Of a stretch of 64,000 nt of DNA, positions 26,497 through 29,338 are shown in pieces (positions within the stretch are counted from its first letter, which is position 1; every line of letters starts with the position of its first letter). The notes under the pieces were generated by a model, which saw only the letters and a program-made list of their open reading frames with translations, did no database searches and had not been told where the DNA came from. Source of the stretch: Halorubrum aethiopicum (GTDB lineage Archaea; Halobacteriota; Halobacteria; Halobacteriales; Haloferacaceae); NCBI RefSeq assembly GCF_001542905.1, contig NZ_LOAJ01000001.1:1984001-2048000 (forward strand), given 5' to 3'. A program made the translations under genes and the position numbers.

Positions 26497-26680
26497 GTGC
26501 GGTGGCGTGCGCCTGCGAGCGCCCGCAAGGGCGCGAGCAGACCGCACGAGGGAGTCAGTCGCCGGCGGCGACTGACGAGGCTGGGGAGGCGTGAGGTGCG
26601 GCGCTGTGCTGGGTGGGACTCAAAGGGGCAGTCGCGATTCCCGCTCGCTCACGCTCGCGGGAATCGCGACTGGGGCTTTG
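26497..26680. other. Structured non-coding element with three strong hairpins
   Basis: In the 359-bp gap after moaA. Hairpin A: outer stem GTGCGGT/ACCGCAC (26497-26503, 26541-26547), a one-sided bulge, CTGC/GCAG, tandem G-A mismatches, six-pair stem GCGCCC/GGGCGC and a GCAA tetraloop (26525-26528). Hairpin B: GTCAGTCGCC, GGC, GGCGACTGAC (26554-26576). Hairpin C: 16-bp arms at 26629-26644 and 26657-26672, with outer CAAAG/CTTTG. No credible protein is encoded. It may be a dispersed repeat or an RNA; both strands are possible. The rest to 26760 shows nothing further. Confidence 0.65.
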
Positions 26681-26760
26681 GCGGCGTTCACTGCGCCGGA
26701 AACGACGAGTTTCGATCAGCGTAGTACCGCGTCAACGCTCCGCGATCCCCGATCGATCGC

Positions 26761-27465
26761 CTACACCGACGACGTGATCCCGCCGTCGACGCGGAGGTTC
26801 TGGCCGGTGATATAACTCGACTCCTCCGAGAGCAGGTACGCGACCGCGTCCGCGATCTCCTCGGTTCGGGCGGCCCGCCCCATCGGGATCTCCGCCTTCG
26901 TCTCCTCGTCGACGTCGTAGCTGTCGGCGAAGCCGGGAAGGACGCTGTTCATCCGGATCCCCGCCGACGCGTACCGGTCGGCGTACAGTTTCGTGTAGCT
27001 CCCGAGGCCGGCCCGCAGGACGGAGGAGACGGGGAAGTCGAGCGATGGCTCGAACGCCGAAAAGGTCGAGACGTTCACGATCGCTCCCTCACCCTGCTCC
27101 TCCATGATCGGCGTGACCAGCCGGGCCATCCGGACCGTGTTCATCAACACCAGGTCCATCCCCTCGTACCACTCCTCGTCGGAGATCTCCAGCAGATCGC
27201 CGGAGGGCGGGTGGCCCGTGTTGTTCACCACGGCGTCGATCCGGCCGTAGCGCTCGTGGGTCGTCTCGACGAGCGCCGCCAGGTCGTCGGGCTCGGTCAC
27301 CGACCCCTCGTAGCCGTCGCCGCCGAGGTCGTCCGCGACGTCGACGGCGCTGCCGGAGGGAGAGAGCAACACCGGGAGGTAGCCGTCGTCGTTCAGCCGC
27401 CGCGCGCAGGCCTCGCCGATGCCGCTTCCCGCCGCCGTCACGATCGCGACCGGGGTGTCGTCCAT
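26761..27465 (-). CDS. SDR-fold protein with degenerate active site
   Basis: 234 residues. SDR fold with cofactor loop TAAGSGIGE (about 11-19), NNTGHPPSG, VNVSTFSAF, and C-terminal LRVDGG. The catalytic Tyr-XXX-Lys helix reads PVSSVLRAGLGSYTK, so Tyr and Lys are replaced by Val and Leu. Such divergent SDRs with LRAGL form a known subgroup whose reactions are unclear. The ATG at 27465 sits 27 bp from a TCTTATG box; a longer frame upstream is not needed. Confidence 0.85.
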   Translation of the reverse strand: MDDTPVAIVTAAGSGIGEACARRLNDDGYLPVLLSPSGSAVDVADDLGGDGYEGSVTEPDDLAALVETTHERYGRIDAVVNNTGHPPSGDLLEISDEEWYEGMDLVLMNTVRMARLVTPIMEEQGEGAIVNVSTFSAFEPSLDFPVSSVLRAGLGSYTKLYADRYASAGIRMNSVLPGFADSYDVDEETKAEIPMGRAARTEEIADAVAYLLSEESSYITGQNLRVDGGITSSV

Positions 27466-29160: not shown

Positions 29161-29264
29161 GACGGGCGATGACGCGACCGACCGATAAATACGTTGTTCG
29201 AGTCGGTTCGACGACACTACCCAGGCATAACGAACACGGCGGGATCGTCGTGAAGGAACTGAAC

Positions 29265-29338
29265 GGGCACAGTGGGATTCGAACCCACGACCGTCGGATT
29301 AGAAGTCCGACGCTCTATCCTGGCTGAGCTACGTGCCC
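29265..29338 (-). tRNA. tRNA-Arg (anticodon TCT)
   Basis: Minus-strand cloverleaf: acceptor GGGCACG pairing with GTGCCC, D-arm GCTCAGCCAGGATAGAGC, anticodon stem TCGGA/TCCGA with loop CTTCTAA (anticodon TCT, reading AGA), T-arm GTGGGTTCGAATCCCAC. No intron, and CCA is not encoded. The discriminator base would be the G complementary to 29264. Confidence 0.96.

Follow-up and report, generated by a model that had tools for sequence, protein, structure and literature searches.

The 184-bp stretch at positions 26497–26680, in the gap 3' of moaA in the window (the whole 64,000-nucleotide stretch of Halorubrum aethiopicum DNA that was analysed), is probably a member of a family of non-autonomous, interspersed, intergenic haloarchaeal repeats of the BOX/ERIC/REP sort, the plus strand of which folds. 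Its copies are dispersed over the chromosome, have been gained or lost at individual sites, keep their structure and a strand asymmetry, and show mixing of their hairpins.

The three strong hairpins reported by the initial annotation were found in the window copy (Table 1); in folding, 0 of 200 shuffles did as well on either strand (z −3.46 on the plus strand, −5.80 on the minus strand). The layout claimed for the first hairpin, from the 7-bp stem to the GCAA loop, was confirmed base by base, and the 16-bp arms of the third are present. The copy extends beyond 26497–26680, the 3' tail common to copies reaching ca. 26708; the typical 5' leader and the longer tail, found in about 40 copies, are absent from it. 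Its hairpin C is a short form: the C domain of most copies reaches or exceeds ca. 100 nt and is often zipper-like; short exact C domains like that of the window copy number three in the own genome. One core site was counted in the 64-kb window.

Table 1. Coordinates of the window copy, its parts and its neighbours (window positions), and of the close inward-facing pairs of copies on C1.
Feature	Position	Strand	Remarks
moaA	25397–26401	+	upstream neighbour, convergent
Hairpin A	26497–26547	+	closing stem, 9-nt bulge, 4-bp stem, tandem GA/GA, 6-bp stem, GCAA loop
Hairpin A, closing stem	26497–26503/26541–26547	+	7 bp
Hairpin A, one-sided bulge	26504–26512	+	9 nt
Hairpin A, 4-bp stem	26513–26516/26537–26540	+	
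Hairpin A, GA opposite GA	26517–18, 26535–36	+	
Hairpin A, 6-bp stem	26519–24/26529–34	+	
Hairpin A, GCAA loop	26525–28	+	
Linker GAGGGA	26548–26553	+	conserved; CGCGAGGGA in most copies
Hairpin B	26554–26576	+	perfect 10-bp stem, 3-nt loop in window copy
G-rich core GAGGCTGGGGAGGCGTGAGG	26577–26596	+	best conserved part; 131 sites in own genome, common to Halorussus
Spacer	26597–26616	+	variable, GC-rich (GCGG/GCTG repeats)
GACTCAAAGGGG	26617–26628	+	CAAAG pairs with CTTTG 26676–26680; GGG left opposite GGG
Hairpin C	26629–26672	+	16-bp arms 26629–26644/26657–26672
3' tail, start	26671–26708	+	common to copies; TGGGGCTTTGG ... CGCCGGAAACGACGA
SDR-family oxidoreductase gene	26761–27465	−	downstream neighbour, convergent; name read off translation
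tRNA-Arg (TCT) gene	29264–29338	−	
Inward pairs (C1)	9481/10528, 167997/169549, 290617/291358, 788499/789903, 2439745/2441167, 2939988/2941072		

Used as query against the own genome, the 184-base stretch gave at least 83 matches; a first pass yielded 227 candidates, 40 of which were scored. With the 18-base core GGCTGGGGAGGCGTGAGG (≤2 mismatches) 131 sites were obtained, 69 forward and 62 reverse, and with the reversed control pattern none. All 131 copies lie on C1 (3.05 Mb, main chromosome); the remaining 0.28 Mb has none. The set analysed further consisted of 100 copies (99 with flanks and the window copy), the parts of which follow in the order 5' leader, GCGGTGGCGCGCC, hairpin A, CGCGAGGGA, hairpin B, CGAGGCTGGGGAGGCGTGAGGTGCGG, G-rich spacer, GACTCAAAGGGGCAG, hairpin C, CTGGGGCTTTGG, tail. 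Common to the copies are three modules: hairpin A, GAGGGA, hairpin B, the near-invariant GGNTGGGGAGGYGTGAGG, and usually hairpin C. The leader (GGTCARTACAG...GAGCGATCGCC) is present in about half of the copies; of the 81 in which a C domain was recognised, 40 have a tail that runs ca. 150 bases further, and some copies end after the core, without this domain. The element has no ORF of its own, all 81 parsed C domains being too short for an enzyme gene.

Smaller repeats were seen inside and beside the elements. A double-hairpin module around TCGTCATCACGA / TCGTGATGACGA, present in either orientation within elements of two genera (L017, L019, L022, L028, L041, L071, C domain; L093, L099, B domain; L164, Halorussus), has the look of a small mobile repeat in its own right. 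A second pair of perfect hairpins, GCCGGCGGC...GCCGCCGGC and a partner rich in GCGC, is likewise nested, in the B or C domain and facing either way, its loops sometimes flipped (GGA/TCC); it was observed in L019, L029, L036, L043, L045, L047, L050, L062, L064, L071, L075, L085 and L106. The 3' tail (CGAGCGACTGGGGCTTTGG...) occurs a second time, in degenerate form, downstream of L009, L010, L031, L034, L038, L079, L109, L111, L113 and L126.

By a home-made codon-based predictor, 0 of 100 copies lay inside predicted genes; 43 stood between convergent, 17 between divergent and 40 between co-directional genes (16 sense, 24 antisense). Background gaps of ≥30 bp in 104 kb of the own genome (n = 72) were 13 convergent, 17 divergent and 42 co-directional; the convergent enrichment is 43/100 against 18% (p = 9e-9; small background) and would be explained most simply if insertions harmful to promoters had been eliminated. 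The 43 convergent copies would suit ordinary transcription terminators between convergent genes; such a function for the family is nevertheless barely credible, as 57 of 100 copies lie elsewhere, and the length, the three modules, the invariant core and the absence of a following T-run misfit a terminator.

Pairing was retained in the hairpins while the sequence of the arms varied. For hairpin A, both anchors were found in 94 of 100 copies, and the 80 of these 94 that had GA/GA and a perfect inner stem were used; 75 of the 80 have all three outer pairs, and outer pairs over the 80 are Watson–Crick in 97.5% against 46.7% with shuffled 3' arms (max 61.7%). Hairpin B (116 copies, 29 different 5' arms): 92.8% of arm positions pair, 54.9% after shuffling (max 61.2%); base of hairpin C (88 copies): 86.8%, 60.9% after shuffling (max 67.6%). 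Compensatory changes in the stems, proposed earlier as a check, are thus borne out for A, B and C; the outcome that had been named as refuting, copies that keep sequence and not pairing, is the opposite of what was seen. Since pairing is retained while hairpin sequence varies, the fold itself seems to be the preserved feature. The covarying base pairs present by the shuffle tests would be given equally by single-stranded DNA.

Distinct stems contain 2449 pairs, of which 2332 are Watson–Crick, 52 G-T and 17 A-C, and the excess of G-T over A-C marks the plus strand as the folding strand. G-T is the milder mismatch in DNA too; the excess fits RNA and also DNA, and a folding RNA stays possible.

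The same asymmetry was obtained with the tandem G-A hairpins. The strict zipper form GA-NN-GA-NN-loop-N'N'-GA-N'N'-GA occurs in 38 of 100 copies, 38 times on the plus strand and never on the minus strand, with 0 in 30 element shuffles and 1 in the rest of the 64-kb window (both strands); it was counted 34 times in 31 of the loci L155–L247 (mostly Halorussus). Its two-base-pair steps are nearly all purine–pyrimidine (GC 44, GT 16, AC 14, AG 2), and the whole C domain folds into such steps, many in number, between 2 × 2 internal loops. In hairpin A the tandem stands in the context pyrimidine-GA-purine in 150 of 160 cases; the loop is closed by C-G in 80 of 80 copies and is a GNA triloop or GNNA tetraloop in 53 of 80. 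Hairpin B of Halorussus gave a clear stem in 20 of 59 distinct sequences (simple fold), and GNA loops are not prominent there. DNA hairpins of the GCGAAGC type with a sheared G-A pair are described as extraordinarily stable (PMC6582339); this may be taken as a pointer towards DNA, not as proof. The predicted RNA fold of the core consensus was the same with and without the G-quadruplex option, which speaks neither for nor against a quadruplex.

It is unlikely that the plus strand acts as RNA (a multi-copy small RNA or 3' UTR), bound by a protein via the tandem GA and the G-rich core. The strand-specific fold with its G-T:A-C ratio of 52:17, the Y-GA-R context of the tandem GA/GA and the strong conservation of pairing in A, B and C would suit such an RNA. 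Against it, no promoter-like block is conserved 5' in the sequences examined; the TATAAG-like stretch of the tail is ACTAG in many copies; co-directional copies are found in either sense, and 17 copies lie between divergent genes; G-T makes up just 52 of the 2449 pairs and non-GNRA loops dominate; and Rfam gave no match. With the Rfam covariance models the 64-kb window returned tRNA-Arg only, and six element copies (E ≤ 1) returned no credible match. A minus-strand RNA started from a promoter in the 3' tail was also considered and rejected, the TATA-like stretch not being conserved. Of the initial annotation's proposal, 'an RNA or a small dispersed element', the second half stands with the 131 copies; the first was not borne out, given copies in either orientation, few GNRA loops and no promoter conservation. 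The GNRA-type hairpin that it described is real in the window copy and does not hold for the family: GCAA occurs in 1 of 80 hairpins A (the window copy) and any GNRA in 4 of 80, so that this tetraloop was rejected as a family feature.

Comparison of orthologous sites gave both presence–absence differences and exchange of hairpins. Site 955233 (L098) is filled in the own genome, whereas all 6 relatives whose flanks aligned on both sides have an empty site there (ca. 430 bp difference). At sites 958262 and 966325, elements are present in 6 and 5 genomes, respectively, with different hairpins: entire arms are swapped, while pairing, linker and core are unchanged; G119 has at 958262 both flanks and a longer gap with no recognised element. 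The gap between moaA and the SDR gene holds an element in 6 of 7 genomes with that gene order, the seventh having a 28-bp gap; all hairpins of the copy in G136 (apparently Halorubrum rubrum) differ from those of the window copy. Among the other 23 moaA loci examined, an element stands at moaA only in G141. As separate observations, some relatives (L125, L126, L131) have an apparent tRNA-Arg directly after moaA; L140 (G136, site 958262) carries an extremely G-rich expansion in hairpin B; and L142 (G119) has at site 947624, where the own genome and G136 have an element, a different insertion of ca. 1 kb, which may be a degraded transposon gene.

Mixing of cassettes was counted in 72 of the 100 copies: of 10 recurring A types, 9 are combined with more than one B type, and of 9 recurring B types, 8 with more than one A type. 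The 72 copies contained no four-gamete pair; the mutual information of A and B types was 3.404 (shuffled mean 3.333, max 3.431), a test of low power because most hairpin types are singletons. Hairpin cassettes thus appear to have been exchanged between copies.

The core (≤1 mismatch) was found in 53 of 148 genomes of the same family: in 30 of 30 sampled genomes of Halorubrum (14–193 sites each) and in 13 of 27 further genera, where sites are mostly few. An order-level search with a longer pattern gave 41 of 293 genomes and 6 of 87 genera; in another family 15 of 18 genomes of one genus, apparently Halorussus, were positive with up to 69 sites. Plasmids gave two partial matches and phage sequences no core match. 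Viral carriage was rejected: the 6 core matches in IMG/VR lie in unrelated sequence, with hairpins A and B in 0 of 6.

This distribution bears on a further reading, in which a putative DNA-binding protein organises, insulates or segregates the chromosome via the copies. The restriction of all 131 copies to C1, the core shared across families and present in 30 of 30 genomes of the genus, and the inward orientation of 6 of 6 neighbouring pairs less than 1.6 kb apart (Table 1) would fit such a site system. Its probability is nevertheless low: spacing on C1 is irregular (coefficient of variation 1.10 against 0.98 for uniform placement) with no strand pattern along C1, copy number ranges from 14 to 193 within the genus, and sites are gained and lost. 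Neither a replication-strand bias nor regular spacing, both sought along C1, was seen. In all six close inverted pairs the copies bracket one or two ordinary genes, and composite transposons were thereby rejected. In Halorussus (L155, L158, L170), inverted copy pairs were observed around a short stretch with AGTAGCTAGC...GCTAGCTACTG.

For the preferred reading, a non-autonomous DNA repeat, the following course is proposed. The element would move as DNA, mobilised by machinery acting in trans; its plus strand would fold into tandem G-A hairpins beside a G-rich core that would serve for recognition, the folding taking place most likely in single-stranded or extruded DNA while the element is copied and less likely in read-through RNA; and recombination between copies would swap whole hairpin cassettes. 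Y1 transposases move REP elements and IS605-type PATEs. Y1_Tnp (PF01797) gave 0 matches in the own genome and was positive in 5 of 14 control genomes; hence, if a transposase of the Y1 class mobilised the element, it is gone, or another class was responsible. Neither a transposase nor exact ends or a target duplication came to light, and the flanks at the empty site 955233 have diverged, which obscures the boundaries there. The conservation of the core across families exceeds the need of a simple parasite and counts against this reading, as do the lack of a four-gamete pair, the G-T excess and the low prominence of GNA loops in the few Halorussus hairpins B parsed.

Derivation as a PATE or MITE from a known insertion sequence (IS200/IS605 or terminal-inverted-repeat type) is very unlikely. 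The element is non-coding and hairpin-rich, and its nested double-hairpin modules are as in Haloquadratum PATEs attacked by SMRs (PMC3119063); against this stand the lack of Y1_Tnp matches in the own genome, the absence of consistent terminal inverted repeats among the listed ends, and a three-module body too constant for a deletion derivative. Terminal inverted repeats had been hinted at by the consensus ends and failed in individual copies.

It is possible, though doubtful, that the copies form an undescribed class of single-strand recognition element in Halorubrum and Halorussus, with zipper hairpins, their tandem G-A pairs sheared, beside an invariant G-rich core, read as DNA or RNA by a putative protein, kept at ≥100 chromosomal sites and evolving by cassette exchange, not point mutation. 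Searches of the open-access literature found no description of this repeat family; part of it may already be listed in a supplementary table for lacusprofundi. The family, lying between genes throughout Halorubrum, would rank among the larger families of structured repeats known from archaea, and its unusual hairpins of Watson–Crick and tandem G-A pairs would offer a natural test of the role of the fold in a potassium-rich cytoplasm. Hairpin replacement at orthologous sites would conserve pairing by cassette exchange and could mislead covariation-based discovery of RNAs.

The family resembles the bacterial BOX, ERIC, REP and BIME repeats, which are likewise interspersed, intergenic, present in many copies, ORF-less, hairpin-forming and modular: 131 dispersed copies, 0 of 100 in genes, conserved hairpin potential and no ORF were found here. 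Unlike BOX, ERIC and REP, the element is archaeal, the sequence of its hairpins is largely free while pairing is fixed, and it has tandem-GA zippers and a G-rich core common across families; the Y1/RAYT gene of REP/RAYT systems is absent from the own genome. The C-GAA-G loop with a sheared G-A pair of d(GCGAAGC)-type DNA mini-hairpins (PMC6582339) is common in these elements, although the mini-hairpin is a chemical motif and not a genetic element. In Haloquadratum walsbyi, PATEs, MITEs and SMRs are described as mobile repeats without a transposase that number hundreds in a genome, small ones sitting inside larger hairpins, as in the present family (PMC3119063). According to that source, PATEs have IS605-type ends and MITEs inverted terminal repeats, neither of which was seen here; PATEs, MITEs and SMRs together are the nearest haloarchaeal precedent of the present family (PMC3119063).
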